A stretch of DNA of 15,446 nucleotides from Chloroflexota bacterium (GTDB lineage Bacteria > Chloroflexota > UBA6077): NCBI GenBank assembly GCA_021788565.1, contig JAJYKO010000036.1, forward strand, positions 1 through 15,446, in the 5' to 3' direction. The position numbers were made by a program, and so were the translations under genes. Below the pieces are notes generated by a model. The model searched no databases. It had not been told where the DNA came from and was given only the letters and a program-made list of their open reading frames with translations. How positions within the stretch are numbered: the stretch's first letter is position 1; the number at the start of each line of letters is the position of its first letter. Positions 237-15,446 of the stretch are shown here, piece by piece.

Positions 237-243
237 GAAAGCG

Positions 244-1017
244 ATGGAATTTCGCAACCGAAACGTTCTGGTGACCGGCGTCGGGGCGGGGATCGGCCGG
301 GGCATCGCGGCCGCCTTTGCCCAAGCTGGCGCCAACGTAATGGCCAGTGACATGGACGCCAGTCGCCTTCAGGAAAGCACGGCGTTGCTTGAGTCCCCGG
401 CCGGCGGCCACGTCGAGACACTGGTGGCCGACGTTCGCCGCGAGGACCAGGTGGAGGCACTGGTAAGCGAGACCCTGCGGCGCTTCGGGGCCCTCAACAT
501 CCTGGTCAACAACGCCGGCATCTATCCAAACTGTCCAGTGGTTCAGATGGGCGCGGAGGAGTGGGACGCTGTGATCGAGACCAACCTGCGCGGTCCCTTT
601 CTGATGTGCCGGGCCGTCGCGAGGCATATGATCGAGCGGGGCGAGGGCGGAAAGATCATCAACATATCCTCGGGCGCCTACAAATCCGCCCGTCTGGGCG
701 CGGCCCACTACTGCTCCTCCAAGGCGGGTGTGGTGATGCTCACGAAGGTGTTGGCACTGGAGTTAGCCGAGCATGGGATCAACGTCAACTCGGTATCGCC
801 CGGACTGATCGACGTCGGACCCCACCCGGGTGCGAGCGAAGCCTACAGGAGTGCCTTGATCAAGACGATCCCGTGGGGTCGAATGGGCCAGCCCAGCGAG
901 ATCGCGCGGGCGGTCCTGTTTTTGGCCTCGGACGACGCTGAATACATAACCGGCGAGGTCCTGGAGGTGGACGGCGGCGCTCTGGCAGGGCGCTTCTCTC
1001 TGCCCCTCAGCAGATAG
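244..1017 (+). CDS. SDR family NAD(P)-dependent oxidoreductase
   Basis: A classical short-chain dehydrogenase of 257 residues, the usual family length. It would interconvert a hydroxyl and a keto group; the substrate cannot be read from sequence. Motifs are in order: the cofactor glycine motif TGVGAGIG (11-18), Asp36 at the end of beta-strand 2, Asp63 in ADV, NNAG (89-92), Asn114, catalytic Ser143, and Tyr156-x3-Lys160. Asp36 usually indicates NAD(H) rather than NADP(H). The C-terminal VDGGAL motif is typical of FabG-like SDRs. There is no signal peptide, so it is cytoplasmic. The ATG at 244 has GGGAGGG 6 nt upstream. A strong terminator overlaps the stop codon, suggesting it is transcribed largely apart from the downstream genes. 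Family assignment is secure. Confidence 0.95.
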   Translation: MEFRNRNVLVTGVGAGIGRGIAAAFAQAGANVMASDMDASRLQESTALLESPAGGHVETLVADVRREDQVEALVSETLRRFGALNILVNNAGIYPNCPVVQMGAEEWDAVIETNLRGPFLMCRAVARHMIERGEGGKIINISSGAYKSARLGAAHYCSSKAGVVMLTKVLALELAEHGINVNSVSPGLIDVGPHPGASEAYRSALIKTIPWGRMGQPSEIARAVLFLASDDAEYITGEVLEVDGGALAGRFSLPLSR

Positions 1018-1068: not shown

Positions 1069-1094
1069 ATACTGATAGTCTCGGGAGGAGAGCC

Positions 1095-2138
1095 ATGGGA
1101 GTCACGGTCTATGGTGCTGGCGCCATCGGCGGACTGACAGGGGCCTACCTGGCAAAGGCCGGGGAAGACGTGCTGTTCGTGGACAGGGTGCCTGAGCACG
1201 TGGAGGCCCTGAACCGTGATGGGATGAAGATCACCGGCTACGCAAACTTCACCGCGAAGGTGAGAGCGTGCCTGCCCCAGGACCTGAAAGGACCCCTGGG
1301 GCTGACTTTCCTGGCGGTGAAAAGCCAGGACACCGAGGCAGCTCTGGACTTCCTCGCGCCTCAGGTGGGACCGGAGACGGTAGTCGTGTCCTTTCAGAAT
1401 GGCATGAACGAACCGAAGATAGCCGCGAGGATTGGCGCCGAAAAGGTGGTCGGCGCCTTCATCAACTTCAACGCCGACTGGCAGGCGCCTGGCCACGTCG
1501 AGCATGGTGGCCCGGGGGCCATCTACCTGGGGGAACTCGACGGCCGCATGACCGACCGCCTCTATAGCCTGCAGAAACTGCTCTCCCCCATGATGACGAT
1601 CAACGTCACCGACAACGTCTACGGGTGCCTGTGGGCGAAGATGATCGATTCCTCGGTGCTCACCCTGGAGGCGGCCACCGACGAGACCATGAGCGCCTTC
1701 GTGGGAAACCCAGAAGTCCAGCCCCTGTTGATCGCGCTTTGTGGCGAGGGGCTCCGTGTGTCACAGGCGTATGGGATTAAGCTCCAGAGCTTTGACGGCT
1801 TTGACGCAACCAAGATGCTCCCGCGCACCGAGGCTGAGGTCGCGGAAGCTCGGGCAATGCTAGACCGGTTCGCGGCCTTCCTCCGCCCGCTGGTCAAGCA
1901 GTACTCCGGCGTGTGGCGGGACCTGGCGGTGCGACATCGTCCCACGGAGACCGACTACCTCACCGGGTGGGTGATCGAGCAAGGGAAGAAGAAGGACATC
2001 GCCATGCCGCTGAACGAAAGGCTGGTTTCTATCATTAAGGAACTGGAGCGCGGCGAGCGCCAACGGTCGATGAGCAACGTGGAGGAACTGGAGACACTGC
2101 GCCGGCAGATCTACGGGCCCGACATCATCGTGCGCTAG
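1095..2138 (+). CDS. Ketopantoate reductase family oxidoreductase (ApbA/PanE-like)
   Basis: A 347-residue protein of the ketopantoate reductase family, somewhat longer than E. coli PanE (about 300). It should reduce a 2-keto acid to a 2-hydroxy acid. The N-terminal Rossmann motif is GAGAIG (7-12). VKSQDT (75-80), QNG (101-103) and the catalytic-type lysine Lys182 in LWAKMIDSS follow. The C-terminal domain has RPTETDYLTG (282-291) and AMPLNERL (303-310), the usual substrate-domain signatures. Asp30 sits at the end of beta-strand 2, where NADPH-using PanE has a basic residue, which suggests NADH use. No other pantothenate gene is nearby, so a catabolic role is more likely than CoA biosynthesis (inference). 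GGGAGGAG lies just upstream of the ATG. Confidence 0.9.
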   Translation: MGVTVYGAGAIGGLTGAYLAKAGEDVLFVDRVPEHVEALNRDGMKITGYANFTAKVRACLPQDLKGPLGLTFLAVKSQDTEAALDFLAPQVGPETVVVSFQNGMNEPKIAARIGAEKVVGAFINFNADWQAPGHVEHGGPGAIYLGELDGRMTDRLYSLQKLLSPMMTINVTDNVYGCLWAKMIDSSVLTLEAATDETMSAFVGNPEVQPLLIALCGEGLRVSQAYGIKLQSFDGFDATKMLPRTEAEVAEARAMLDRFAAFLRPLVKQYSGVWRDLAVRHRPTETDYLTGWVIEQGKKKDIAMPLNERLVSIIKELERGERQRSMSNVEELETLRRQIYGPDIIVR

Positions 2139-2162
2139 CGCTAGACCACGAAAGACTTGACC

Positions 2163-2227: not shown

Positions 2228-2237
2228 AGTAAGGATC

Positions 2238-2367: not shown

Positions 2368-2369
2368 AT

Positions 2370-2375
2370 AGGAGG
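2370..2375 (+). promoter_or_regulatory. Ribosome binding site that fixes the TTG start at 2385
   Basis: AGGAGG lies 9 nt before TTG at 2385. It is the only strong site here and supports the rare TTG start. The next in-frame ATG would lose the conserved N-terminal helix of the peptidase. Confidence 0.7.
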
Positions 2376-2384
2376 CGGATATCC

Positions 2385-3545
2385 TTGAGCGATCTTGTCG
2401 CATACATCGACGGCAAAAAGCAGGAGATGCTCTCCCTCCTGGAGCAGATTGTCAACATGGACTCCGGCACCCTGGACAAGGCTGAAGTCAACCGGCTCGG
2501 CGCGGTCCTGGCCGAACGGCTCGCCTCTCTCGGCTTCGCCGTTGAGCGCGTGCCTCAGACCCAGTACGGCGACCACTTGATCGGCCGCAAGCAGGGTAGC
2601 GGCGATCAGCGGATCCTGTTCATCGGCCACATGGACACGGTGTTTCAGGCTGGCGAGGCGGCCAGGCGCCCCTTCCGGCTGGAGAGGAATCGGGCCTACG
2701 GGCCTGGAGTAGTCGACATGAAGGGCGGGTTGGTTAGCCTCCTGTACGCTCTGGAGGCGCTGAAAGCCACCGGCAAACCCTCTTTCGACACCATATCGAT
2801 GACCGTGATCTTCAACAGCGACGAGGAGGTTCTTTCTCCCACTTCCACGCCGCTGATTCAGGCAGAAGCCCGCCAGGCGCGGACGGTGTGCGTGTTCGAA
2901 CCTGCTCGCCCCGGCGGGGAGTACGTAGTGCGGCGCAAAGGGGTTGGGAAATACCTCCTGACCGTGAAGGGAAGGGCTGCGCACGCCGGTGCCCAACCCG
3001 AGAACGGCCGCAGCGCCATCGAGGAAATGGCCCACAAGATCCTGGACATCCACACCCTGACCAACTTCGGCAGCGGCACCACCCTCAACGTTGGCCTGGT
3101 TCGAGGCGGCGAGCGGTCGAACGTGGTCGCCGCGGAGGCTTACGCCGAGATCGACATCCGGGTTCCGAACCTGGAAGAGGCGAAGCGAGTGGACGCCAGG
3201 ATGCAGGAGATCGCTGCAAAGAGCACAGTCCCCGACACCACGGCCTTGCTGACGGGAGGAATCACCTTTCCGCCCATGACTCAGACACCGGAGGCACGCA
3301 GACAGTTCGAGGCGCTTCAGGCCATTGGACGGAGCCTCGACCTGGATCTCGAGGGCATCGCCACCGGTGGCGGCTCGGACGGCAACCATGCGTCGCAGTT
3401 CGCACCTACTCTTGATGGAATGGGTCCTCAGGGAAGCGAAGCGCACAGCGATCGTGAGTTCATGGTCGTGCCAACCCTGGCCGAGCGGACGAAGGTAACG
3501 GCCCTCTTCCTGGCCTCCTGGCCCGAGCTGATCGCCAGGGCGTGA
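2385..3545 (+). CDS. M20 family metallopeptidase, glutamate carboxypeptidase (CPG2)-like
   Basis: A 386-residue M20/M25 di-zinc hydrolase, expected to remove a C-terminal amino acid, often Glu or Asp, from a peptide or N-acyl conjugate. The catalytic set is complete: GHMDTV with His82 and Asp84, the bridging Asp111 in VVDMKGG, the catalytic Glu147 and ligand Glu148 in SDEE, Glu172 in FEP, and the distal ligand His354 in EAHSDREF. The Glu of the FEP motif, rather than Asp, is typical of carboxypeptidase G2-type members. The lid/dimerisation domain spans roughly residues 180-290, including AAHAGAQPENG (198-208). No signal peptide is present, unlike secreted Pseudomonas CPG2, so it should act in the cytoplasm. 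The stop overlaps the MFS start by 4 bp, implying translational coupling of uptake and cleavage. Confidence 0.93.
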   Translation: MSDLVAYIDGKKQEMLSLLEQIVNMDSGTLDKAEVNRLGAVLAERLASLGFAVERVPQTQYGDHLIGRKQGSGDQRILFIGHMDTVFQAGEAARRPFRLERNRAYGPGVVDMKGGLVSLLYALEALKATGKPSFDTISMTVIFNSDEEVLSPTSTPLIQAEARQARTVCVFEPARPGGEYVVRRKGVGKYLLTVKGRAAHAGAQPENGRSAIEEMAHKILDIHTLTNFGSGTTLNVGLVRGGERSNVVAAEAYAEIDIRVPNLEEAKRVDARMQEIAAKSTVPDTTALLTGGITFPPMTQTPEARRQFEALQAIGRSLDLDLEGIATGGGSDGNHASQFAPTLDGMGPQGSEAHSDREFMVVPTLAERTKVTALFLASWPELIARA

Positions 3546-4765
3546 GGGACTCGACAGTGCCAACCTGGGCTACGGTCACCGTGCTTTGCTCCCTGCTGGC
3601 GCTGCACAACGCTCAGCGGATGGCTCCTGTGGCCTTATACGAGGAGCTCAGGGTGAGGCTGGCGGTAGACTACGTCGGGGTCGGCTACCTGTTCGGCGCC
3701 TACCTGATCGCCTACGCCCTGTGCAACATCCCCGCGGGGATGCTGGCCGACCGGATCGACGCTCGCAAGCTGGTAGCCGTTGGGGCTGCCCTGAGCGTCG
3801 CCGCCTCGGTTGTGTTTGCCACGGCCACCAGCTATCCCATCGCCATCGCCGCGCGAATGGTCCTGGGCCTCGCGGGCGCCCTGATCTACGTCCCATCCGT
3901 GCGCTTCGTGGTCGCCAATTTCCCGAAGGCGAGGCGCGGCACGGTGATGGGCTTCCTCGAGATGGGAGCGGGGGCCGGTCAGATCCTGGCTCTCACCCTC
4001 CTGCCCTTCCTGGCAGGCCAGTGGGACCTCACGCGGGCCTTCCTTGCGCTGCCGCTCTTTGGAGTGCTGGTACTGGGAGGCATCTTCCTCGGGCTACCGC
4101 CGACTCGCCCGGTCGCGTCTCCCAACGCACATGGTGAGCTCCGGCTACTGCTGCGCAGCAGCCGCTTCTGGGACCTGATCGCCTTCCAATTCCTGGGGAT
4201 GCTGGCAATATACGCGATCTCGGGCTGGCTGCCCACGTTCGCCCGCGTCGACTTTGGCTACACGGCGGTCCAGGCCGGACTCGTAGGTGCCCTGGTCAAT
4301 GTGTCGCTCTCCCTCTTCTCTCCCCTGGCCGGCGTGATCTCTGACCGCATGCGCAGCCGTCCCCCGGTGCTACTGGCAGGTGCCCTACTCATGGCGGCTT
4401 GTCTCGCCGTGCTAGCGATCAGCCGAGACTCCACGGTACTGCTGGTGACAGCCTTTCTCGCGGGGGTGAGCACGGCCTTTTCCATACCCGTCTTCGTGAT
4501 CTATGTGGGAGAGAGCTTCGCCGCGGCTGGAGCCGGGCTGGCGGTATCCGTTGCCATCACCATCGGGCAAGTAGCCTCGTCACTCTCCGGGCCTCTCTTC
4601 GGCTACACCCTGGAGATGACCGGGACGTTCGTCGCCGTGTGGGGGCTGGCCCTGATCACGGCCGTACTCCGTATCCCATTCCTGTTCGGCGGGAGGCAGC
4701 GGCTGGCTGCCGAAGCACCTGCCGCCGGCTTCTCGCGGGAAACGCGCAAGAGGATCGATCGGTGA
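3542..4765 (+). CDS. MFS transporter
   Basis: A 407-residue inner-membrane protein with about 12 hydrophobic segments and the major facilitator loop motif GMLADRIDARK (66-76) between TM2 and TM3. The equivalent repeat GVISDRMRSR (264-273) lies in the second half. A hydrophilic central loop spans about 187-210. It has no periplasmic-binding-protein partner and is the only transporter in the window, so it is the likely importer or exporter of the compound handled by the surrounding hydrolases (inference). The GTG at 3542 overlaps the preceding stop by 4 bp. A second GTG at 3557 has GAGGGA about 7 nt upstream and is a plausible alternative start, removing five residues. The substrate cannot be predicted. 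The short basic C-terminal tail is cytoplasmic. Confidence 0.92.
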   Translation: MRDSTVPTWATVTVLCSLLALHNAQRMAPVALYEELRVRLAVDYVGVGYLFGAYLIAYALCNIPAGMLADRIDARKLVAVGAALSVAASVVFATATSYPIAIAARMVLGLAGALIYVPSVRFVVANFPKARRGTVMGFLEMGAGAGQILALTLLPFLAGQWDLTRAFLALPLFGVLVLGGIFLGLPPTRPVASPNAHGELRLLLRSSRFWDLIAFQFLGMLAIYAISGWLPTFARVDFGYTAVQAGLVGALVNVSLSLFSPLAGVISDRMRSRPPVLLAGALLMAACLAVLAISRDSTVLLVTAFLAGVSTAFSIPVFVIYVGESFAAAGAGLAVSVAITIGQVASSLSGPLFGYTLEMTGTFVAVWGLALITAVLRIPFLFGGRQRLAAEAPAAGFSRETRKRIDR

Positions 4766-4808
4766 GGCATTTCAGCACTTAACAGACCAAGGATCAAGGA
4801 GGTTCGCG

Positions 4809-5984
4809 ATGATTACAGCGATTCGGGCTGGGCGTCTGATTGACGGCCGCGGCGGCCAGGCCGTCGAGGACGCCGTGGTGCTGGTGGAGGGTGACCTGAT
4901 CCTGGCCGCGGGTCCGTCGGCCCAGGTTGCCGTTCCCGCCCAGGCGGAGGTCATCGATTTCGAAGGCCACGCCTTGCTGCCAGGTTTCATCGATGCCCAC
5001 ACTCATCTCTCGATTATTCCGGGATTGGGCAACCAGTCCGGCCAGATGATGGAGCCCGCCACCCGTCAGCTCTTTCGGGTGGTGGGCAACACCCGCCGGA
5101 TGCTCAATTCGGGTGTCACTACGGCGCGGATCATGGGGGAAGAGCACTTCCTGGACGTGGAAGCGCGCCAGGCCATTGAGGCGGGACAGATACCCGGGCC
5201 CAGGCTGATAATCTCCACCCGCCCTCTGACCGCGACCAACGGCCACGGCGGTGCCCTCACCTTCACGGATGGGCCCGACGCCATACGCCAACGCGCACGA
5301 GAGAATCTGAAGGCAGGCGCGGACTTCTTGAAGCTGTTCGCGACCGGCGGCATGTCCAGCAAGGTAGGCGTCGACAGGGTCAGCTACAGCGACGCCGAGA
5401 TCGCCACTATCGTCGAGGAGGCTGAGCGAGGCGGGACCTACGCTGCGGCCCATGCGCATGGGGGCCTGGGGATGCGACGGTGCCTGGAGCTGGGAGTTCG
5501 TACCATCGAGCACGCAGCCCTTGCAACCTCCGAGGAAGTGGATCTCGCCATCTCTAAAGGGGCCTGGCTGGTAGGCACCTTCGCCATTCTGTACCACCCC
5601 GAGGGCATCGAGAAAGCCGACTTCCACATCGCCGCCATTCGGGAGAAGGTGCTGGCGGGTCGAGAGGTCGCGCGCAAGAACTGGAGCCACATCGTGCAGT
5701 CCGGGGTCAAATGGGCGCTGGGCACCGACTCGATGCACGGCTTGCTACCGTACGAGGCAGTTAAGGTGGTGGAGTTCGGGGCAAACCCGATGGATGCCAT
5801 CCAGGCCATTACGTCGCGGGCAGCGCAGGTGTGCAGGATCGAGGATAGGGTAGGAACGGTGGAACCCGGCAAGCTGGCGGACCTGGTCGCGGTGCGCGGG
5901 GATCCCCTGCAGGATATTGAGGCGTTGAGGCGGGTCGGCTTCGTGATGAAGGGCGGTCGTCGCTACGACTTATCCGCTGAGTGA
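4809..5984 (+). CDS. Metal-dependent amidohydrolase family protein (imidazolonepropionase/Xaa-dipeptidase type)
   Basis: A 391-residue amidohydrolase-superfamily enzyme. The small N-terminal beta-domain (1-55) and C-terminal strands with VEPGKLADLV (351-360) flank a TIM barrel. The metal-site residues are present: DAHTH (His64, His66), Lys175 in FLKLFATGG as the probable carboxylated bridging lysine, AAHAHG (213-218), His235 in IEHA, and Asp307 in GTDS. This pattern matches proteins often labelled imidazolonepropionase or 'Xaa-Pro dipeptidase'. Characterised members of that group hydrolyse Xaa-Arg/Lys/His or hydrophobic dipeptides. With peptidases on both sides, a dipeptidase role is more likely than histidine degradation, as no hut genes are near (inference). 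AAGGAGG (4797-4803) supports the ATG. No signal peptide. Confidence 0.92.
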   Translation: MITAIRAGRLIDGRGGQAVEDAVVLVEGDLILAAGPSAQVAVPAQAEVIDFEGHALLPGFIDAHTHLSIIPGLGNQSGQMMEPATRQLFRVVGNTRRMLNSGVTTARIMGEEHFLDVEARQAIEAGQIPGPRLIISTRPLTATNGHGGALTFTDGPDAIRQRARENLKAGADFLKLFATGGMSSKVGVDRVSYSDAEIATIVEEAERGGTYAAAHAHGGLGMRRCLELGVRTIEHAALATSEEVDLAISKGAWLVGTFAILYHPEGIEKADFHIAAIREKVLAGREVARKNWSHIVQSGVKWALGTDSMHGLLPYEAVKVVEFGANPMDAIQAITSRAAQVCRIEDRVGTVEPGKLADLVAVRGDPLQDIEALRRVGFVMKGGRRYDLSAE

Positions 5985-6007
5985 TCAGCGCAGGAAGGAC
6001 AGGAGAA

Positions 6008-7372
6008 ATGGACAGGGAGGAATCTCTCGACCGCTACCTGAAGAGCCAGGAGCAGCGCTACCTGGATCTGTACTTTCGCTTGCTGCGGCAGCCGAGCGTG
6101 AGTGCCCAACGACTTGGTGTCGAGGAGTGCGCTCGGCTCCTGTGTGACGTGATGGGGGAACTGGGACTTCACGGGGAGGTACTCCCGACGGCGGGCCTGC
6201 CGGTCGTCTACGGGGAGTTGACCATAGATCCGGCAGCGCCCACCCTGCTGGTCTACGGGCACTACGACGTCCAGCCGCCGGAGCCCTATGAGGCCTGGGT
6301 CTCGCCCCCGTTTGAGCCAACAGTGCGGAATGGGAGGGTGTACGCCCGGGGCAGCGCCGATAACAAGGGGCAACTGCTGCCGCAACTCTTCGCCGTGGAG
6401 GCCCTGAGGGTGATCGGCGCACTACCCCGCCTGAACTACAAGTTCCTTTTTGACGGCGAGGAGGAGATGGGGAGCCCCAGCCTGCCGGCCTTCGTCGCAG
6501 CGAACCGAGAGCGATTGAAGGCCGATCAGCTCTACTGCAGCGATGGGGCCTACGACCCGAGCGGGCGGCCGCTCATCGAGTTCGGCGTCCGCGGCCTCCT
6601 GTACATCGAGTTGGAGTGCGAGTGGGCGAACCGAGATCTGCACTCGGGGCAGTTCGGCAACGTGGTTCCCAACCCGGCCTGGACACTGGTCCAGCTTCTG
6701 GCAACGATGAAGGACACTCAGGGACACGTCACGATCCCGGGCTTCTACGACGAGGTCGTGCCCCCAACTCCCTACGAGCGCCAGCTGATGGCCGTCCTTC
6801 CTTTCACTAGGGAGGAGTTCACAGCTTCCCTTGCACTGCCGCTGGAGGTGGGGCTCGAGGCTCAGAAGCACTTCGAGGGGTTGATGTTCCAGCCCACCCT
6901 CAACATCGCCGGCTTCAGGAGCGGCTATCTCGGGGAGGGGACGAAGACCGTGCTGCCTGGCAAGGCGCTGGTGAAGATCGACGTCCGGCTCGTCGAGGGC
7001 CAGGACCCGGACGTGATGTACCGACGGATCGTCGAATACGTGGCGGAGCGAGCACCTCGCGTTGAAGTGCGTAAGGTCGGCGGCGCGGTGCCCCCGGCCC
7101 GAAGCTCCAGCGAGACACCGGCCGCACAGGCGATAGTCCGAGCCGTTCGGGAGACCTGGAAGGCCGAGCCACTGATCAGGCCGAGCTCTGGTGGGACGCT
7201 GCCGATGTACCCATTCACGAAGACCCTCGGCCTGCCCGTCGTCTTCGTACCCTACGGCAACCCGGACGAAACCAACCACGCGCCCAATGAGAACATGAGC
7301 CTGGAGGCTTTCTGGCGCGGGATACGGACGAGCGCGGCGGTTTTCAACGAGCTGGCATCGGTCGAGAGATAG
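6008..7372 (+). CDS. M20 family dipeptidase (carnosinase/CNDP-like)
   Basis: A di-metal M20 dipeptidase of 454 residues, close to cytosolic non-specific dipeptidase in length. Residues seen, counting from the ATG at 6008: GHYDVQP with His85 and Asp87, bridging Asp118 in SADNKGQ, the Glu run DGEEEMGS (149-156) holding the catalytic and ligand Glu, Asp179 in SDG, and His424 in NHAPNENM. DLHSGQFG (210-217) marks the lid domain that shapes the active site across the dimer. The frame stays open to a GTG at 5981 overlapping the previous stop. The ATG at 6008 was chosen because purine-rich GGAAGG/AGGAG precedes it and the family's conserved N-terminal helix begins there. It should release free amino acids from dipeptides in the cytoplasm, with a substrate range different from the CPG2-like and AbgB-like relatives nearby. 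Confidence 0.93.
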   Translation: MDREESLDRYLKSQEQRYLDLYFRLLRQPSVSAQRLGVEECARLLCDVMGELGLHGEVLPTAGLPVVYGELTIDPAAPTLLVYGHYDVQPPEPYEAWVSPPFEPTVRNGRVYARGSADNKGQLLPQLFAVEALRVIGALPRLNYKFLFDGEEEMGSPSLPAFVAANRERLKADQLYCSDGAYDPSGRPLIEFGVRGLLYIELECEWANRDLHSGQFGNVVPNPAWTLVQLLATMKDTQGHVTIPGFYDEVVPPTPYERQLMAVLPFTREEFTASLALPLEVGLEAQKHFEGLMFQPTLNIAGFRSGYLGEGTKTVLPGKALVKIDVRLVEGQDPDVMYRRIVEYVAERAPRVEVRKVGGAVPPARSSSETPAAQAIVRAVRETWKAEPLIRPSSGGTLPMYPFTKTLGLPVVFVPYGNPDETNHAPNENMSLEAFWRGIRTSAAVFNELASVER

Positions 7373-7406
7373 GCCAGTACCTCTCAGAGAGAAACGGAGG
7401 ATCAAC

Positions 7407-9161
7407 ATGGCTGAGCCACAGATGAAAGACAACCTGGAGCAGTCGGTCCTCGGCGCCATATCGGCCCAGGAGCCGTGGGCGCTGGTGGAGCGGTTCTCTC
7501 ACATCGTTAGGCTATCGGCAACCCCGGAGGAGCGGAAGGCGATAGACTACCTGGTGGGTCGACTGGAGGCGCTGGGCATCCCCTACACCCTCTACGAGCC
7601 GGAGCTGTACGTGAGCCTGCCGATCTCAGGGCGGCTGGAGGTGTCGGGCGGCAGGGAGATTCGGGCCAAGACCCCCGCCTACTCCGCATCCGGCACCGTC
7701 GACGCCGAGGTCGTGTACCTCCCGGGAAACCTGGCCGGCGACGTGAGCCAGTTCTTCTTCTCCACGGCCCAGGACACGGCCGTCGATGTCCGGGGCAAGA
7801 TCGTGCTCACCGAGGGGATGTCCCTGCCCAAGGTGGTCCAGGACTACGAGCGGCGGGGTGCGGTCGGGCAGATCTACATCAACCCCGATGTCCAGGTGAT
7901 CCACGAACTGATGGCGACGACCATCTGGGGAATCCCGACTCTGGAGAACCTGGCGAGCAAGCCGCACACGCCCATCGTCAATGTGAACCGCACGGGCGGG
8001 GAGGAGCTGAAGCAGCTGCTCGCGAAGGGGCCCTTGAGGGTGCGGATCACCACGGAGCTGGACGAGCGCTGGAGGAAGGCGGCGATACCGGTCGCCGAGA
8101 TAAGGGGAAGCGAGGAGCCGGAGAAGTTCATCTTGCTTCACGGCCACCTGGACTCCTGGCACTACGGGGTCACAGATAACGCCACGGGCAACGCCGGCAA
8201 ACTGGAGCTGGCCCGGGTGTTCAACCAGCACCGGGACAGGCTGCGACGGAGCTTGCGCATCGCGTGGTGGTCGGGCCATTCTCACGGCCGCTATGCCGGA
8301 TCGACCTGGTACGCCGATAACTTCGGCCTCGACATCGAGAAGAACTGCGTGGCCCAGGTCAACATGGACTCGCCGGGCGCGAAGTGGGCCACAGCGTTCG
8401 ACGAGATGATGTGGACAGCCGAGGCTGACAGCCTGTGTAGGGACGCGATCGTCGACACGACGGGCATCACGCCGAAGCGGCTCCGGCCGATCCGCGCCGG
8501 CGACTACTCCTTCAACAACATCGGCGTCACCTCCTTCTACATGCTCTCCTCTAACATCCCCGTCGACGTCAAGAAGGAGATGGGCATGTACACCGTCGGC
8601 GGCAGCGGGGGCAACTCTCGCGCCTGGCACTCCGAGGGCGACGTCCTGGAAGCGGCCGACCCGAAGATCCTGGTGCGCGACATCAAGGTATACGCGGCGA
8701 CGATTTTTCGAGCTCTGAACGCCGACGTCTATCCCTTTGACTTCGTCAAGACAGTGGACGAGTCCCAGGAGATCGTTCAGAAGTACCAGAAGGAGGCGAG
8801 CGGACGCTTCGACCTCGGGCCGGTTTTGGAAGAGTTGGCGGCGCTGCGGGCAGATCTGGCGGCGTTCAATACGCGAGCCGCTCGCGCGGTTGCTTCCGGG
8901 GACCGCGCCGAGCAAAGGAAAGTGAACGAGGCGCTGCTAAGGCTGGGCCGGATACTTATCCCGACAGGGTACGCTAAGAGGGAAATATTCGAGCATGACC
9001 CGGCCTACGACATCCCAGCCTTCGCAGAGATCGCGCCTGCGGCGGACCTCCCAAAGTACGACGGACTGGCCGAGCAGAGGTTCTTGCTGAACCAGCTCGT
9101 CCGGGGTCGCAACAAGGTGCTCCTGCGCCTGCGGCAGGCCCGGGAGGTGGCGACGGCCTGA
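7407..9161 (+). CDS. M28 family peptidase-like protein with altered catalytic dyad (paralog 1)
   Basis: A 584-residue cytoplasmic protein with no signal peptide. It has an N-terminal helical segment, an inserted PA-like domain (about 90-200, with VRGKIVLTEG at 128-137), an M28 zinc-peptidase core (about 225-435) and a helical C-terminal domain (about 450-584). The layout recalls glutamate carboxypeptidase II. Metal-site residues: His247 and Asp249 in GHLDS, Asp257 in TDNATGN, Asp321 in NMDSPG, His408 in AWHSEGD. Where M28 enzymes have W-x-x-E-E-x-G before the GS motif, this has WSGHSHG (288-294), so His291 replaces the catalytic Glu and Ser292 the metal-binding Glu. Peptidase activity is therefore uncertain. 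GGAGG 8 nt upstream supports the ATG. Paralogs lie at 10094 and 14074. Confidence 0.85.
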   Translation: MAEPQMKDNLEQSVLGAISAQEPWALVERFSHIVRLSATPEERKAIDYLVGRLEALGIPYTLYEPELYVSLPISGRLEVSGGREIRAKTPAYSASGTVDAEVVYLPGNLAGDVSQFFFSTAQDTAVDVRGKIVLTEGMSLPKVVQDYERRGAVGQIYINPDVQVIHELMATTIWGIPTLENLASKPHTPIVNVNRTGGEELKQLLAKGPLRVRITTELDERWRKAAIPVAEIRGSEEPEKFILLHGHLDSWHYGVTDNATGNAGKLELARVFNQHRDRLRRSLRIAWWSGHSHGRYAGSTWYADNFGLDIEKNCVAQVNMDSPGAKWATAFDEMMWTAEADSLCRDAIVDTTGITPKRLRPIRAGDYSFNNIGVTSFYMLSSNIPVDVKKEMGMYTVGGSGGNSRAWHSEGDVLEAADPKILVRDIKVYAATIFRALNADVYPFDFVKTVDESQEIVQKYQKEASGRFDLGPVLEELAALRADLAAFNTRAARAVASGDRAEQRKVNEALLRLGRILIPTGYAKREIFEHDPAYDIPAFAEIAPAADLPKYDGLAEQRFLLNQLVRGRNKVLLRLRQAREVATA

Positions 9162-9179
9162 GTCGATGGGATGGCTCTA

Positions 9180-9269
9180 CCCTGGAATCGACGCTTCAGC
9201 GGGTTGGGCTCGGTCCTCCCGATGCCTGCTTCCTGTCCGCCTGGTCCGGCTGAAGCCTCGATTCCAGGG
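9180..9269. repeat. 90-bp palindrome in the gap before the AroM gene
   Basis: The arms 9180-9200 and 9249-9269 are 21 nt each and complementary at 20 positions, around a 48-nt loop. No T-run follows on either strand, so it is not a clear intrinsic terminator. It fills most of the 201-bp gap between the M28-like gene and the AroM gene. It may be a dispersed palindromic repeat, or a structured transcript region that separates expression of the two gene groups. Confidence 0.75.
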
Positions 9270-9352
9270 CGTGTGGAGGTGTTGGCGCGGAGTGAGCCAG
9301 GGGCTTAAATGAACTGTATTACGATAAGCCGGCTACCGCTGGGAGTAGACAT

Positions 9353-9357
9353 GGAGG
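9353..9357 (+). promoter_or_regulatory. Ribosome binding site that fixes the AroM start at 9363
   Basis: GGAGG lies 5 nt before the ATG at 9363. In-frame ATGs also occur at 9309 and 9351. The 9363 start gives a protein whose first residues align with the start of E. coli AroM, and the longer versions add residues with no family support. Confidence 0.6.
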
Positions 9358-9362
9358 CACCA

Positions 9363-10046
9363 ATGCGTCGAATCGGTATGGCTACCATAGGCCAGGCGCC
9401 CCGGGACGACCTCGTCCCCTTTATGCTGCAGATATTCTCCAGGCCCGTGGAAGCCCTCCAGAAGGGGGCCCTCGACGGGCTCGACCAGGAGCAGATCGGA
9501 GCCCTGGCGCCAGATCCCGGCGAGGTGGGCATCGTGGCGCGGCTGCTCGACGGCTCCTCGACCCTGCTATCCCACTCCAAGATCCTGCCCCGCATGCAGG
9601 TCGTGGTGGATAGCCTGTTCGAGCAGGGTTCGGAGTTCGTGGTTGTCCTGTGCGGTGCCGACTGGAGCGATCTGAAATCCTCCAGGCTGGTGGTGAACCC
9701 CGGCAGGCTTTTCCCCTCTATCGTCGGCAGCCTGGCCCGTGGTCGACGTCTGGGCATTATCAAGCCCTCTGCCGGCCAGGTGGAACGAGAGAAGGAGCGG
9801 TACGCCCAAATAGGCATCGAGGCCGTGGTGACTTCGGCGTCTCCCTACCTCGGCGACGCACGCCTCTCCGCCGCGCAGGACGCCGCCGCCTACCTGAAGG
9901 CCGGCGGCGTGGACCTGGTCTGGATGAGTTGCGTGGGAATGGACGAGCCGATGCGGGGCATCGTTCGGGAGATCGTGGACAGGCCAATTATTCTGGCCAG
10001 GTCGATCCTCTCCCGTGTGGTCGACGAGCTGCTATCCGGAGACTGA
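9363..10046 (+). CDS. aroM: AroM family protein
   Basis: A 227-residue protein resembling E. coli AroM (about 225 residues) along its length: the MATIGQAPRDDLVP start, the GEVGIVARLLDG stretch, VNPGRLFPSIVGSL, a KPSAGQVEREKERY region, and GGVDLVWMSCVGM near the C-terminus. AroM is known in E. coli from the TyrR-regulated aroL-yaiA-aroM operon but has no proven function. The fold appears related to Asp/Glu racemases. Here two cysteines, Cys97 in VLCGAD and Cys190 in MSCVGM, sit where the catalytic Cys pair of that superfamily lies. As I recall the E. coli sequence, the first is not conserved there. No shikimate genes are present. The setting between two M28-like genes points to peptide or amino acid catabolism. 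It is presumably cytoplasmic. Confidence 0.85.
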   Translation: MRRIGMATIGQAPRDDLVPFMLQIFSRPVEALQKGALDGLDQEQIGALAPDPGEVGIVARLLDGSSTLLSHSKILPRMQVVVDSLFEQGSEFVVVLCGADWSDLKSSRLVVNPGRLFPSIVGSLARGRRLGIIKPSAGQVEREKERYAQIGIEAVVTSASPYLGDARLSAAQDAAAYLKAGGVDLVWMSCVGMDEPMRGIVREIVDRPIILARSILSRVVDELLSGD

Positions 10047-10093
10047 CTTCCCGGCTCTTGATACAGACTCCGGAATAGGAAAGGTGAATCCAA

Positions 10094-11851
10094 ATGGCCG
10101 ATCTCGAAAAGGAGCTCAGATCCCAGGTAGACACCGCCGAAACGTGGTCCCACGTCGAGAAGCTCTCGAACTTCGAGCGCCTCGCCGGGACCGAGGGCGA
10201 GAAGGCGGGTGTCGATTACATAATTGGCAAGCTGGCCGAGTACGGCGTGCCCACGAAGCTTCACCGATTCGACGCTTTCATAAGCCATCCCCTTGAGTCG
10301 GAGCTGGAGGTCCTGGAGCCGGTGGGCATGTCCATACCCTGCAGGCCCCGCGCCTTCGCGGCCGGCACGCCGGAGGAGGGGATCGAGGCGGAGCTGCTCT
10401 ACCTCCACTCAGGGATCGAGGCCGGGAAGGGGGAGATGATCTTCTCCCATCGAGCCCTGGCTGACAGCTACGAGAGGGGAAGCCTGGCCGGGAAGATCGT
10501 ACTCACCAGCTCTGGCGGTCCCGACGGTTTGAAGAACGCCCAGGAGGGCGGCGCCCTGGCCCACTGCCAGATCTGGCCCTCGGACGAGAAGGTCATCCAC
10601 GAGATGATCGTGTCTTCCATCTGGGGCACCCCGACCCCCGAGTCGGCCCAGCGATTGGTTAAGATCCCAGCCATCTCTGTGACCCATTCTGACGGAGAGA
10701 GGTTGAGCGCCCTGTGCGAGCATGGCAGAGTACGGGTACGGCTGAAAGCGAGGGTTTACATCGGATGGAGGCCAGTGCTGCTGCCGGTGGCGGAGATCGC
10801 GGGCAGCGAGGAGCCGGAGAGGTTTCTCCTGGTGGGTGGCCACCATTGCTCCTGGTATTTCGGCACTACCGACAACGCGACGGGCGACGCCTGCCTCCTG
10901 GAGATGGCCCGAGTGCTGAACGGGAACAGGGCGGGGTTGCGACGTAGCGTCCGCATTGCCTGGTGGCCTGGCCACTCCCAGGGTCGCTACGCGGGCTCCA
11001 CCTGGTACGCGGACAACGAATTCGAGGACCTGCGCCGCAACTGCGTGGGCTACCTGGGTATCGACTCCCCAGGTGTCCGAGGGGCCCAGGTCTGGGACTG
11101 CCGCTACAACCACGGCGAGGTCGAGAAGTTCATGGACCGCCTGATGCGGGAGGTAACCGGCCAGGAACCGAACATTCGGCGACCCTTCAAGGCTGGCGAC
11201 CAGTCTTTCTGGGGGGTGGGTATCCCATCCTTCGGAGCCTACCGCATGATCCCTGTGGACTCCCCCGACCGGGCCAACGTCGGCGGCTCGGGCGGCGGCT
11301 ACTGGTGGCACAGCCCCGAGGACACCATCGACAAAGGCGACGCCAATGTTCTGGCCTCAGATACTGAGCTGTACCTTACCCTGGCGTCCCGAGTCTGCTC
11401 CGCCGACGTGCTGCCCTACGAGTACGTGACCCCGGCCAGAGACTTCGAGACGCTGCTGGCCGAGATTGGTGATGCTGTGGGGGGGCATCTCGACCTGGCG
11501 CCGGCCCTCGAGCAGGCGAGGGCCTTCGAGTCCGCCGCGGCGAGGATCGAGTCCGCCCGGGCGACGGTTTCGACCGAGCAGGTGAAAACGCTAAACGAGG
11601 GGATGCTGGGCATCGGCCGCATAGTCAACCCAGTGCTATACACGCAGGCTGGTGACTACGATCAGGACCCGGCGCTGCAGTTGCCCCTGCTGCCAGGGCT
11701 TCAGCCGGCCCGACAGCTGGCGAAGCTGGACCCGACGAGCGACAAGTACGGCTTCCTGCGGACTCGAGCCGTTCGGGAGCGCAATCGCATCGTGGACGCG
11801 CTCTATCGGGCGACCCTCGAGGCTGAGCGGCTGGTCAAGGAGCTTTCTTGA
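10094..11851 (+). CDS. M28 family peptidase-like protein with altered active site (paralog 2)
   Basis: A 585-residue paralog of the protein at 7407, with the same order: N-terminal helix, PA-like insertion (about 95-215, LAGKIVLTSS at 131-140), M28-type core, and helical C-terminal region (about 450-585). GRYAGSTWYADN (297-308) is identical in both. The equivalents of the metal ligands are His250, Asp260 in TTDNATG, Asp324 in GIDSPG and His406 in WWHSPED. Two catalytic positions deviate: Cys252 replaces the Asp of the HxD motif, and WPGHSQG (291-297) puts His294 and Ser295 where M28 peptidases have Glu-Glu. This makes it the most divergent of the three. It may bind a metal without classical peptidase chemistry. 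No signal peptide. AGGAAAGG precedes the ATG, and the gene follows AroM by 47 bp. Confidence 0.84.
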   Translation: MADLEKELRSQVDTAETWSHVEKLSNFERLAGTEGEKAGVDYIIGKLAEYGVPTKLHRFDAFISHPLESELEVLEPVGMSIPCRPRAFAAGTPEEGIEAELLYLHSGIEAGKGEMIFSHRALADSYERGSLAGKIVLTSSGGPDGLKNAQEGGALAHCQIWPSDEKVIHEMIVSSIWGTPTPESAQRLVKIPAISVTHSDGERLSALCEHGRVRVRLKARVYIGWRPVLLPVAEIAGSEEPERFLLVGGHHCSWYFGTTDNATGDACLLEMARVLNGNRAGLRRSVRIAWWPGHSQGRYAGSTWYADNEFEDLRRNCVGYLGIDSPGVRGAQVWDCRYNHGEVEKFMDRLMREVTGQEPNIRRPFKAGDQSFWGVGIPSFGAYRMIPVDSPDRANVGGSGGGYWWHSPEDTIDKGDANVLASDTELYLTLASRVCSADVLPYEYVTPARDFETLLAEIGDAVGGHLDLAPALEQARAFESAAARIESARATVSTEQVKTLNEGMLGIGRIVNPVLYTQAGDYDQDPALQLPLLPGLQPARQLAKLDPTSDKYGFLRTRAVRERNRIVDALYRATLEAERLVKELS

Positions 11852-11875
11852 TGCCGTAGTGCTCAGACAATTCGG

Positions 11876-11905
11876 TTGGCTGAGGCAGAATGCCCAGATT
11901 ATGCT
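11876..11905 (+). promoter_or_regulatory. Weak candidate promoter before the M20D gene
   Basis: TTGGCT (11876-11881) and TATGCT (11900-11905) are separated by 18 bp, a poor to moderate match to sigma-70 boxes. It lies in the locally AT-rich stretch between the M28-like and M20D genes, and the -10 falls inside the first copy of a 14-bp tandem repeat. The call rests on spacing and context only. Confidence 0.25.
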
Positions 11906-11924
11906 TTTCTGATTATGCTTTTCT
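11897..11924 (+). repeat. Perfect tandem repeat, 2 x 14 bp
   Basis: GATTATGCTTTTCT occurs twice head to tail (11897-11910 and 11911-11924), just before the ribosome binding site of the M20D gene. It is AT-rich in an otherwise GC-rich region. It could be a slippage product or a duplicated regulator or promoter site. Confidence 0.85.
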
Positions 11925-11930
11925 AAAGAA

Positions 11931-11934
11931 GGAG
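11931..11934 (+). promoter_or_regulatory. Ribosome binding site that fixes the GTG start at 11943
   Basis: AAGGAGAGG (11929-11937) contains GGAG 8 nt before GTG at 11943. An in-frame GTG at 11937 overlaps the purine run itself and is too close to be served by it, so 11943 is preferred. Confidence 0.6.
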
Positions 11935-11942
11935 AGGTGCTT

Positions 11943-13130
11943 GTGGCGACGCTAGAACAGGTGAAGGATAAGATAGCTGAGGAGGTGAAAGGGCTCCACC
12001 CGAGGCTGATCGAGATCAGCCACGAGATCCACGACAACCCGGAGATCGGCTTTCAGGAGCATCGGGCCGCGGCGCTGCTGACGGACGAGTTGGAGCGAAA
12101 TGGATTCTCGGTCGAACGGGGCGTGGCCGGCATTGAGACGGCTTTCGTCGGCACCTGGGGGAAAGGAAAGCCCGTGGTGGGCCTCCTGGCCGAGTACGAC
12201 GCGCTGCGAGGTGTTGGCCACGCCTGTGGCCACAACCTGATCGCCGTCTGGGCGCTGGGCGCGGGCATCGCTCTGAAGCAAGCCCTGCCGGAGTTGGAGG
12301 GGACCATCAAGGTGTTCGGCACGCCGGCGGAGGAGGGCGGCGGAGGGAAGGTGCTGATGGCCGACGCCGGTCTGTTCCGGGGGCTGGACGCCGCCATCAT
12401 GATGCATCCGCGGGACCAGACCTTCCTCGATCGGGGCTCCCTGGCCGTCTCTCACTGGAAGATCGAGTTTTTCGGCAAGTCCTCTCACGCCTCTGCGGCC
12501 CCGGAGAAGGGGATCAGCGCCCTGGATGCACTGCTTCAGGTCTTTTTCAGCGTCAACGCCTTCCGGCAGATGATGAAGCCGATCGGCCGGATGCACGGTT
12601 GCATCCTGAAAGGGGGCGATGCCCCCAATGTTATCCCGGACTACACCCTGGCCGAGTTCCTGGTGCGCTCCCGGGATCAGGACTACCTGGAGGAGTTGGA
12701 GAAGAAGTTCCTGGATATCGTGCAGGCTGCCTCCATGGCCACGGGCGCGCGCTCCGAGGTGCACAAGGGCACCAGTTACAAGGTACGGGTCAGCAATCGC
12801 GCACTGGTGGAGGCGCTGCGGGAGAACATGGTGGGCCTCGGGATCACGTGGGACACGCCCGAGGAGGGGGCCGTGGGGTCCAGCGATATCGGCGACGTCA
12901 GCCAGCTGGTGCCGACGATCCACCCCTACATGGCGATATGCGAGAAGGGGGTCCCAAACCACAACCCTCAGTTCGCCATTGAGGCCGCCTCGCCCCTGGC
13001 CGACGAGCGGATCGCCCTCGGCGCCACCCTGCTGAGCTGGACGGGCGCGGACGTCCTCCTCCGCTCCGATCTGCGTGAGCGCCTGCGCTCGACCTTCCGC
13101 GAACAGCTCGGCCGCGACCCAAAGGAATAA
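11943..13130 (+). CDS. M20D family amidohydrolase (AbgB/IAA-amino acid hydrolase type)
   Basis: A 395-residue M20D enzyme, expected to hydrolyse N-acyl or aminobenzoyl amino acids or dipeptides by a bi-metal mechanism. Motifs from the GTG at 11943: EIHDNPEIGFQE (28-39), ACGHN (94-98) with ligands Cys95 and His97, the Glu pair Glu130-Glu131 in TPAEEGGGGK, His155 in MMHP, the lid-domain SSHASAAPEKG (180-190), and the distal ligand His340 in VPNHNPQF. Cys95 rather than Asp as bridging ligand, and the PAEEGGGGK stretch, are characteristic of AbgB-like amidohydrolases. VGSSDIGDVSQLVPT (311-325) is another strong AbgB-type signature. It is probably cytoplasmic. An AbgA partner and an AbgT transporter are absent. 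It lies 13 bp before the racemase gene, so the two are very likely co-transcribed. Confidence 0.93.
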   Translation: MATLEQVKDKIAEEVKGLHPRLIEISHEIHDNPEIGFQEHRAAALLTDELERNGFSVERGVAGIETAFVGTWGKGKPVVGLLAEYDALRGVGHACGHNLIAVWALGAGIALKQALPELEGTIKVFGTPAEEGGGGKVLMADAGLFRGLDAAIMMHPRDQTFLDRGSLAVSHWKIEFFGKSSHASAAPEKGISALDALLQVFFSVNAFRQMMKPIGRMHGCILKGGDAPNVIPDYTLAEFLVRSRDQDYLEELEKKFLDIVQAASMATGARSEVHKGTSYKVRVSNRALVEALRENMVGLGITWDTPEEGAVGSSDIGDVSQLVPTIHPYMAICEKGVPNHNPQFAIEAASPLADERIALGATLLSWTGADVLLRSDLRERLRSTFREQLGRDPKE

Positions 13131-13131
13131 G

Positions 13132-13136
13132 GGAGG
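13132..13136 (+). promoter_or_regulatory. Ribosome binding site that fixes the GTG start at 13144
   Basis: GGAGG lies 7 nt before GTG at 13144. The same frame stays open back to 13075, but that version would overlap the M20D gene by 56 bp and add residues unlike the family. MRIVYIMP is the usual first beta-strand of hydantoin/Asp-Glu racemases. Confidence 0.7.
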
Positions 13137-13143
13137 TGGAGCT

Positions 13144-13872
13144 GTGCGTATCGTTTACATAATGCCGAGTGCCGTCTCGAGCGGCCCACGTGGGCCGGCG
13201 GAACTCGAGCGCCGCAGGGGCATCTTGCAGGGGTGGGCAGTCCCGGGCTGCGAGATCACCGTCGTCGACCTGGACCAGGGCCCGCTCTCCATCGAGTCCT
13301 CCGCTGAGGAGTACCTGGCGGTGCCGGGGTTGCTTCGCCGTGTGCAGGAGGGCGAGCGCGACGGATTCGACGCGGCGATAGTCGGATGCTACGGCGACCC
13401 CGGTGTGGATGCCTGCCGGGAGATCGCTCGCATCCCTGTCCTGGCTCCCGGCGAGTGCTCGATGCTCGTTGCCGCCAGCCTGAGCCACCGATTTAGCATC
13501 GTCACCGTGCTGAGCTCCCTGCTCCGTCCGCTGGAGCAGTTAGCCAGAGCGGTGGGGATCGATTCCAAGCTGGCCAGCGTCCGCTCGGTGGGCGTGCCCG
13601 TTCTGGATCTGGCTCGCGAGCCTGACAGCAGTTTCCGGAGCGTGCTCGAGGCATCTCGGCTGGCCATCTCCCAGGATCGGGCCGACACCATCGTCCTGGG
13701 CTGCATGTCTATGGCGTTCCTAGAGGTTTCCGACCGGCTACAGGGGGAGTTGGATGTGCCGGTGGTCAATCCGGCCCTGGTCACGCTGAAGTTCGCCGAG
13801 ATGCTGGTCCAGTCGAGGTTGGCGCCGAGCAAGCTTGCCTACCCGCTGCCGCCCAAGCCGCTGGCGCTGTGA
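13144..13872 (+). CDS. Aspartate/glutamate/hydantoin racemase family protein
   Basis: A 242-residue cofactor-independent racemase of the Asp/Glu/hydantoin racemase superfamily. The two catalytic cysteines are present: Cys82 in IVGCYGDPGVDACREI and Cys187 in VLGCMSMA. They act as acid and base on opposite faces of the alpha carbon. GDPG after the first Cys, VPVVNP (205-210) and the C-terminal SKLAYPLPPKP (229-239) fit the hydantoin racemase (HyuE) branch better than MurI. Immediately downstream of an M20D amidohydrolase, it could racemise a free or N-substituted amino acid so that a stereospecific hydrolase can use both forms (inference). No hydantoinase gene is in view, so a true hydantoin pathway is not shown. 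Cytoplasmic. Last gene of the + strand run. Confidence 0.9.
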   Translation: MRIVYIMPSAVSSGPRGPAELERRRGILQGWAVPGCEITVVDLDQGPLSIESSAEEYLAVPGLLRRVQEGERDGFDAAIVGCYGDPGVDACREIARIPVLAPGECSMLVAASLSHRFSIVTVLSSLLRPLEQLARAVGIDSKLASVRSVGVPVLDLAREPDSSFRSVLEASRLAISQDRADTIVLGCMSMAFLEVSDRLQGELDVPVVNPALVTLKFAEMLVQSRLAPSKLAYPLPPKPLAL

Positions 13873-13887
13873 CTCAAGGTTGCCGTG

Positions 13888-13922
13888 TCGAGCTTCGAAC
13901 CTGGGGGTTCTCGCGGGCTCGA
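13888..13922. repeat. Small two-part hairpin in the convergent gap
   Basis: TCGAGC (13888-13893) pairs with GCTCGA (13917-13922), and inside them GAACC (13897-13901) pairs with GGTTC (13906-13910) around a 4-nt loop. It starts 15 bp after the racemase stop, where a terminator would be expected, but no T-run follows. The rest of the 201-bp gap (13873-14073) between the convergent genes shows no gene with a recognisable product or ribosome binding site. Confidence 0.35.
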
Positions 13923-14073
13923 ATGTAGGGGGTGTTGCCAGGAGCGTCGGGACAAATGAGAGTGGTGAAATGATCTATGTGCCGGGAGGAGCCAAGGCTT
14001 GTCGGTCACCCCGCTTTGCAGGCCGCTTTAAGGGTGATGACATCGCCATCGAGTGACCTCGATAGGGGCTATA

Positions 14074-15446
14074 TCAAGGCGCTACTACCGTCGCTGTGCG
14101 ATGAGCCAGGTCACGCACCTCCCTCACGCCGTCGGCGAAACGGTTACGCTGACGGATCAACTCGGTGGCTAACAGGTGACGCTCCTCGGAGCCCGCTCCC
14201 ATGGAATTCATCCGAGGCAGTTCGTACAGACCAGGTAGGAGCGTGCTCTGGGCCGACAGCCCATAGGAGTCGTGGCCATAGCTGCCGGCGACCGTCCCTC
14301 CCAAAGGTACTAGGATCCTGCTAAGCGCCTTCAAAGTGGTGTTCAGTGTTGCCGCTACTTCCTCGGGCACGTTGCTCCGCCGGGTCTTCTCTCGCCAGCT
14401 CTCGGCCACGGAGTCCAATCGCTGCACGGCATCAAGCGCCTCCCGAGCCAGGGACACCGCCTTAGAGAGACCGATCTCGTCACCGACTGGCAGAAGAGTC
14501 TCCGCTCTCTCCACCATCTGTTTCACCGTGGGAGCAAAACGAGCAGGAATAATGGGTACGGTGAGAAGCTCGGCCAGATAGGCTGCGTACACTTTCAGGT
14601 GCAACCCTAGCAGTTCCCTGTCTAGCCGCTCGATGGTGCTAGCGTCAGTATGATGCCACCATCCCAGATTGCCGTTGCCCATGGCCTGGATCTCTGCCTT
14701 CGTGAACGCGGTGCGGCCCGTCAGGGAGGGCACACCGACACCAAAGAAGGAAGTATCGCCGGTCCGCACAAGTCGACCCCAGTAGGCTGACATGCCACCA
14801 AGCACCCGACGCTCCACCGCTGCGTGGAAATCGTGCAGCTCCACGTCGCTCTTGGTTTCCCAAAGAGTCGTGCCGATGAGAGCGGGCTGGTCGATCTGAA
14901 GGTAGGCCACGGCGTTCTCGCGGAGGTCGTCCCAATAGCTATCCACGAAATGGCTGGAGCCGATCATGGTGCCCGTCTCGTGGCCCACCCAGAAGCCGAC
15001 AGTGAGACTGCGCCGCAGCTCAGCCGCATGGTGCTGGAACACCCGAGCCAACTCTAGGAAGATGGCGTTGCCAGCGGCATTGTCACTAGCTGCCTGGCCA
15101 AACCACGAGTCCATGTGGCCACCCAGGATAGCGAACTCCGGCGAGGCGCTACCCGAGAGAACCCTGCCTACGGCCTGCCGCAGCGGTCGCCACTCGTCTC
15201 GGCTCTCTGCGCTTAGCCGCAGACTAACAGGCCCGCGGGCGACCATAGCCCGCAGCTCCAGCCCATCGGCACGAGATAAGCCGAGACAGGGGATGGTAGG
15301 CATCTCTGTGCGCATGGTAAGCCTGGTGGGGTTGCCCCAGCAGGGCTTCACCGAGCCGTAGGGCAGCAGCTTGCTATCGTCGTATCCCCAGTTGAGCAGA
15401 ACCGCGCCCAGAGCGCCCTGACGTGCCATGATCCGCTGCTTCTCCT
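14074..15446 (-). CDS. M28 family peptidase-like protein (paralog 3), N-terminus cut by window edge
   Basis: A third paralog on the opposite strand. The frame runs through the right edge: five more codons are open before the internal Met at 15429, and alignment to the paralogs suggests about 140-150 N-terminal residues lie outside. Visible parts are the end of the PA-like domain, the M28 core and the helical C-terminal domain. Counting from the Met at 15429, the metal-type residues are His105 and Asp107 in GGHMDS, Asp117 in SDNAAGN, Asp180 in QIDQP, and His259 in GWWHH. The position of the catalytic Glu is again His (His150), but the next residue is Glu151 in WVGHETG, so one metal-binding Glu is kept. 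It is the most canonical of the three. It is clearly diverged from the other two (for example GSSHFVDS against GSTWYADN), so it is an older paralog or a separate acquisition. Confidence 0.83.
   Translation of the reverse strand, partial: EKQRIMARQGALGAVLLNWGYDDSKLLPYGSVKPCWGNPTRLTMRTEMPTIPCLGLSRADGLELRAMVARGPVSLRLSAESRDEWRPLRQAVGRVLSGSASPEFAILGGHMDSWFGQAASDNAAGNAIFLELARVFQHHAAELRRSLTVGFWVGHETGTMIGSSHFVDSYWDDLRENAVAYLQIDQPALIGTTLWETKSDVELHDFHAAVERRVLGGMSAYWGRLVRTGDTSFFGVGVPSLTGRTAFTKAEIQAMGNGNLGWWHHTDASTIERLDRELLGLHLKVYAAYLAELLTVPIIPARFAPTVKQMVERAETLLPVGDEIGLSKAVSLAREALDAVQRLDSVAESWREKTRRSNVPEEVAATLNTTLKALSRILVPLGGTVAGSYGHDSYGLSAQSTLLPGLYELPRMNSMGAGSEERHLLATELIRQRNRFADGVREVRDLAHRTATVVAP

Follow-up and report, generated by a model that had tools for sequence, protein, structure and literature searches.

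Three genes resembling peptidase family M28, here called A, B and C, lie in the 15.4 kb stretch of Chloroflexota DNA that was analysed (contig JAJYKO010000036.1, positions 1 to 15,446; hereafter the window), and in all three the column of the catalytic glutamate of M28 (Aeromonas Glu151, GCPII Glu424) is occupied by histidine and not by glutamate. This histidine is the signature of a clade. It was present in all 360 relatives that were fetched, namely the best 120 of 3781 matches for A, the best 120 of 1124 for C and the best 120 of 2812 for B; among these listed matches 239 carry serine (HS type) and 121 carry glutamate (HE type) at the following position. With moderate confidence it is proposed that the three genes encode intracellular amide hydrolases that depend on metal and have a GCPII-like three-domain fold; their substrates would be N-acyl compounds or small peptides of non-standard kind taken up by the cell, and the histidine (His291 of A) would serve as the base.

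Position of the histidine

The motif was located on the forward strand at 8274-8288 in A (GHSHG; WSGHSHGRYAGS; His codon CAT, residue 291 of 584) and at 10970-10984 in B (GHSQG; WPGHSQGRYAGS; His codon CAC, residue 294), and on the reverse strand at 14971-14985 in C (GHETG; WVGHETGTMIGS; His codon CAC). These recomputed positions are exactly those of a first-pass annotation of the window, which had assigned His to the first Glu of the M28 motif in all three genes and Ser, Ser and Glu to the second. The same placement was obtained by four alignment routes, i.e. pairwise phmmer against PDB chains, profile hmmsearch, MAFFT, and global profile-profile alignment with hhalign against canonical M28 cores (probability 99.8 for the HS type and 99.4 for the HE type). 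By every route one additional residue was placed directly before the GS pair in the His types.

In GCPII the role of catalytic base is assigned to Glu424, and the Zn ligands are His377 and Asp453, Glu425 and His553, with Asp387 as the bridge (PMC8538779, excerpt). The columns of H247, D257 and D321 of A correspond to GCPII 377, 387 and 453 in the profile search alignment, and that of H408 corresponds to the last His of the M28 structure 3iib (C protein) and of the M28 set from metagenome-assembled genomes (MAGs). Judged by these columns, the C type appears to hold all five positions of the ligand pattern H, D, E, D, H, and A and B four of them, with Ser in place of Glu.

Conservation across the clade

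For the analysis of conservation, an alignment of 350 rows was used, comprising 347 of the 360 relatives (13 shorter than 540 aa were dropped) and A, B and C; since the search favours near relatives, the counts describe this branch and not all of M28. Invariant in all 350 rows are H291, H247, D257, D321, H408, E267 and D366, and Asp304 is kept in 348. Position 292 is S in 238 rows and E in 112, and in the C set the ligand Glu stands alongside the His in 111 of 111. The earlier description of the HxD, D, D and H ligands as mostly kept was thus an understatement for the ligands themselves (H247, D257, D321 and H408, each 350/350), and what varies is the non-ligand Asp of HxD, which is replaced by Cys in 20 rows including B.

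The three genes share merely 30-36% pairwise identity, and their reading frames contain no internal stop. In four orthologue pairs dN was 0.12-0.23 and dS 0.93-1.34, again with no stops, and the genes are under purifying selection. Three copies, the His in 360/360 relatives and dN/dS of 0.13-0.18 exclude a decayed gene as well as a sequencing error, against which the first-pass annotation had already argued.

Another conserved Glu at the base position would have spoken against the substitution. When the 350 rows were compared at sequence level with 11 outgroup rows of Glu types, no Glu column was found that is both invariant in the His clade and missing from the Glu types: E267 is also present in 11/11 outgroup rows, and E339 in 6/11.

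Most canonical M28 proteins carry S-D-H at the loop of Asp366. An exchange of the base Glu that is coupled to one of the loop His (S-D-H to A-G-D) was considered and rejected, as G-D-Q also occurs in two EE controls (L108 and L110), which carry both glutamates, and S-D in some His types. From the alignment, Asp366 is more likely the same Asp as in S-D-H next to a deletion of one residue, nor is the change peculiar to the clade. Asp305 of human glutaminyl cyclase is presumably the Asp of S-D-H. In that enzyme Glu201, Asp248, Asp305 and His319 take part in a common hydrogen-bond network (PMC10435661, excerpt). Asp366 may possibly be a partner of His291, which we offer as an idea.

Fold, location and known relatives

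Matches to PF04389 (peptidase family M28) reached 57.1 bits for A, 47.3 for B and 54.5 for C (cut-off 21.3). The AlphaFold2 (AF2) model of A had a pLDDT (predicted local distance difference test) of 96.3 and that of P0121, the nearest relative of C (92% identical), of 95.5. The models align over the whole chain, with 537 residues of A matched to 3d7f and 551 residues of P0121 to 9hlw, and both GCPII and transferrin receptor can be superposed on them at full length. The predicted protease, apical and helical dimer domains lie in one chain, as in GCPII-like three-domain M28 proteins. Together with the ligand columns, the models agree with the earlier expectation that the fold is retained along with one metal site or more. 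At E 0.001 only PF04389 was reported for A, B and C, with no match to Pfam TFR_dimer. By a simple hydropathy test, a hydrophobic N-terminal stretch was seen in only 2 of 317 Met-starting relatives, and the His-type proteins are therefore probably cytoplasmic.

Compared with human GCPII/III and NAALADase-like proteins, the clade has 16-19% identity, the base Glu424 is replaced by His and, in A and B, the ligand Glu425 by Ser; the TFR_dimer match is absent from A, B and C, and the hydrophobic N-terminus from A and B. With BSAP (6hc6), 2ek8 and the Aeromonas aminopeptidase the clade has the M28 core and the ligand pattern in common, but in these enzymes the natural base is Glu, whereas the His clade has an extra C-terminal helical domain and an intracellular look. 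Transferrin receptor 1, a receptor without an enzyme site, has the same overall fold as the models; unlike in such non-enzymes, the four ligand columns are invariant in the clade.

No solved member of the clade was seen in the PDB, since the top matches of the clade profile, to GCPIII, stayed at or below 112 bits, whereas nearly every His-type gene that was fetched scored above 400 bits (the exceptions are fragments in L004). Judged from the listings of literature searches, no paper among them deals with a His-type M28, and the group is apparently uncharacterised.

Descent and distribution

A tree of the M28 core was calculated from 65 rows, the 11 outgroup rows being taken only from the Chloroflexota MAGs and including no GCPII-type Glu proteins; long-branch warnings were given by the program. 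His and Glu types were split with support of 100/99, all 11 outgroup rows lying on one side, the 13 HE rows grouped together (100/99), and so did the 41 HS rows (95/88). The base column of the outgroup is E in 10 of 11 rows, with a gap in L028. Within the limits of this outgroup, the defined sub-branch suggested earlier is real and old, and the simplest history is EE to HE to HS. A fairer outgroup would share the domain plan of GCPII, but TFR_dimer (PF04253) matched none of 121 Chloroflexota genomes and none of 14 controls, so the tree does not sample the clade's sister group.

In seven Chloroflexota MAG genomes and in plasmids, scores of the fetched M28 genes against the clade profile were about 400-800 bits for the His types and below 125 for the Glu types, with two fragments of one L004 gene in between; rows with a gap at the motif were settled by the MAFFT alignment, except L028. 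A second His-type M28 gene of L004 (554-2261) is divided among overlapping segments that differ in reading frame and is apparently broken. The distribution is patchy, with a clade match at E 1e-40 in 5 of 121 Chloroflexota genomes, one of which (G096) has 8 copies. The clade covers Chloroflexota, Alphaproteobacteria, Deinococcota, Armatimonadota, haloarchaea and others, and plasmid records with His types come from rhizobia, Ketogulonicigenium, Deinococcus, Roseomonas, Pantoea and haloarchaea. Members are annotated as 'M28 peptidase' or 'N-acetylated-alpha-linked acidic dipeptidase'.

A separate HS subgroup carries M-D-N-G-x-A (L008, L027, L030, L031, L037, L044, L014 and L015); some of its members have A for G after the motif (GHSHARY), and two adjoin M20 genes on rhizobial plasmids. 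A second, very different His variant was met in a Herbiconiux plasmid M28 gene (L116:7082-8521; 50.6 bits to the clade profile), which has T-H-F-T-G at the base position and was for this reason excluded from the EE controls, for which it had first been chosen. Its neighbours are an amidase, a cupin and a peptide-type ABC importer; as a query it gave no match in the 121 Chloroflexota genomes, and in plasmids good matches only to two near-identical Herbiconiux copies.

Gene content and neighbourhoods

The window holds twelve genes (Table 1). C, the only one on the opposite strand, is truncated by the window end, with 456 aa inside as against 588 aa in P0121. Positions 13075-13130 are shared, in different frames, by the last M20 gene and the gene of the racemase family, which suggests co-translation.

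Table 1. Genes of the window and positions of interest in gene A
Feature	Position	Strand	Remark
Short-chain dehydrogenase (SDR)	244..1017	+	
Ketopantoate-reductase-like protein	1095..2138	+	
M20 family hydrolase	2385..3545	+	
MFS transporter	3542..4765	+	
Amidohydrolase family protein	4809..5984	+	Top NCBIfam match Xaa-Pro dipeptidase, under its cut-off
M20 dipeptidase-like protein	5981..7372	+	
M28-like gene A	7407..9161	+	584 aa, HS type
A His247	8145..8147	+	First metal ligand position; computed from gene start 7407
A Asp257	8175..8177	+	Bridging ligand position
A His291 codon	8277-8279	+	Base position
A Ser292 codon	8280-8282	+	Metal-ligand position in canonical M28
A Asp321	8367..8369	+	Ligand position
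A Asp366	8502..8504	+	Invariant; loop is S-D-H in most canonical M28
A His408	8628..8630	+	Last metal ligand position
AroM (PF07302)	9309..10046	+	Between A and B
M28-like gene B	10094..11851	+	585 aa, HS type
M20 amidohydrolase	11937..13130	+	TIGR01891, over cut-off
Asp/Glu/hydantoin racemase family protein (PF01177)	13075..13872	+	
M28-like gene C	14074..15446	-	HE type; 5' end outside window

For comparison, 17 plasmid regions around His types (15 HS and 2 HE, the latter L060 and L061) were picked because they are annotated, several of them from related species, and set against nine EE controls with verified motif; neighbours were counted by product name, and the Fisher tests are uncorrected for kinship. 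Genes of M20, M19 (membrane dipeptidase) or amidohydrolase type occur in 15/17 His regions and in 0/9 controls (p 1.8e-5), counting L064, where the only such gene is named 'Zn-dependent hydrolase'; none was present in L012 and L062. IclR or GntR regulators occur in 14/17 as against 0/9 (p 7e-5), and any ABC importer in 13/17 as against 4/9 controls, 3 of which are of peptide type (p 0.046 against the 3). Genes of the Asp/Glu racemase family were found in 7/17 regions and no control (p 0.058), directly adjacent in six of them (L010, L060, L061, L064, L068 and L069). His-type genes are located in catabolic clusters with M20, M19 or amidohydrolase enzymes in bacteria and haloarchaea. Much of the window is repeated on the Haladaptatus plasmids L010 and L068, with genes for an SDR, two His-type M28 proteins, an amidohydrolase that overlaps with M20, and a racemase-family protein.

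The cluster is not universal, since in the fetched Chloroflexota regions many His-type genes have few recognisable neighbours on short contigs. In G096, orthologues of A and C (76 and 80%), of B (69 and 63%), of the first and last M20 genes (71 and 67%) and of the amidohydrolase (70%) are spread over several clusters, and that of the first M20 gene adjoins that of A.

Of 33 unique His-type genes in the fetched Chloroflexota regions, 6 have AroM, to our knowledge a family without known function, no more than 600 nt away, as against 0 of 11 outgroup genes. As a marker of the whole clade it was rejected on account of this low share (a rougher count of 7/32 gave a non-significant p of 0.16). It goes with the B type, at 4/8 loci and additionally in G096 and G104; pairs of AroM and B-type M28 genes were observed in the window and in L001, L003, L005, L007, L070 and L073.

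Proposed mechanism and alternatives

We infer metal binding, amide hydrolysis, the use of the histidine as base and the kind of substrate. The imported substrate would be bound between the three domains, and a metal pair or, in the HS type, one strong and one re-shaped site would activate water. In place of the catalytic Glu, His291 would be the general base that takes a proton from the water and would then become the proton donor to the leaving amine, perhaps tuned by the invariant Asp366.

There are precedents for such a base. The D-aminopeptidase DppA of Bacillus subtilis (family M55), which is encoded in a dipeptide-transporter operon, reportedly has the ligands of the Aeromonas aminopeptidase and His at the base position, and the work on the E151H mutant of the latter is said to point to the same His and the same ligands. 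DppA belongs to another family; in the Pfam scan A, B and C matched PF04389 and not M55. By sequence, the C type shows the residue pattern reported for DppA (His at the base position with H, D, E, D, H), and it may work alike. A title, 'functional E151H aminopeptidase', stands in two reference lists for the Aeromonas enzyme. With E151H and DppA as precedents, a new chemistry need not follow from the exchange of the base by itself. The first-pass annotation had expected the chemistry to change, which is not supported as stated, since a His at this position is known to work as acid/base; its 'unknown reaction' stands for the substrate.

Several points weigh against the proposed base. Histidine is not a free swap for glutamate, since the E151H mutant, although functional, is reportedly about 2000 times slower. 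The same follows from GCPII, where E424A abolishes activity and E424Q lowers it 8-fold (PMC8538779, excerpt). Moreover, the HS types are without one metal-ligand Glu, and the racemase and ABC links are weak at the p values given above, uncorrected for relatedness. The C type would be a natural twin of E151H, and A and B would be one step further; since the ligand Glu is lost there, a re-liganded or single-metal site is a serious rival for these two.

In this rival, which we regard as unlikely for the clade while granting it some real weight, His291 is a new metal ligand in place of the lost Glu, above all in the HS type, and the base of a continued hydrolysis is metal-bound hydroxide alone or another residue. 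It fits the HS type, where an invariant His neighbours the position of the missing Glu, and the loop could be shifted by the additional residue ahead of the GS pair; however, the HE type keeps His291 together with the ligand Glu, i.e. without a missing ligand. A protein with the M28 fold that binds or regulates without catalysis, like transferrin receptor, is improbable, as the invariance of the four ligand columns is unlike a degenerate site and the genes lie among degradative enzymes in 15 of the 17 regions. We consider decidedly improbable a non-hydrolytic metal enzyme, e.g. an isomerase or lyase, or a mononuclear iron enzyme with a His/His/Asp set: the loss of both Glu in the HS type and the racemase-family, AroM and oxidoreductase genes nearby would suit it, but there is no direct evidence for it, the neighbours are mostly hydrolases, and the M28-fold enzymes known to us act on amides by hydrolysis or cyclisation. 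Very improbable is a merely apparent His at the base position, produced by the one-residue loop insertion and with another acid as base, for which Asp304 and Asp366 are close by in sequence, as four alignment routes concur and no invariant Glu is special to the clade.

A wider proposal, which taken as a whole we hold to be rather unlikely, extends the reading of His291 as base: in this clade the M28 fold would have given rise to a new catalytic class, convergent with DppA and corresponding in nature to the engineered E151H, made up of intracellular hydrolases of D-configured, racemised or other non-standard imported dipeptides, with Asp/Glu racemase and AroM as partners, and with first the base and then the metal ligand exchanged along EE to HE to HS.

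Significance

The clade is a large, apparently unstudied bacterial and archaeal group that resembles a zinc peptidase and has His for the acid-base Glu, and an enzyme that works in another way may stand behind the name 'peptidase M28'. His-type genes mark conserved catabolic clusters. If the proposed reading is true, a catalytic residue known from textbooks was replaced a single time, at an early stage, and became fixed across a widespread clade, and the E151H mutant would offer a quantitative comparison for how nature regained the rate that is lost by the swap.
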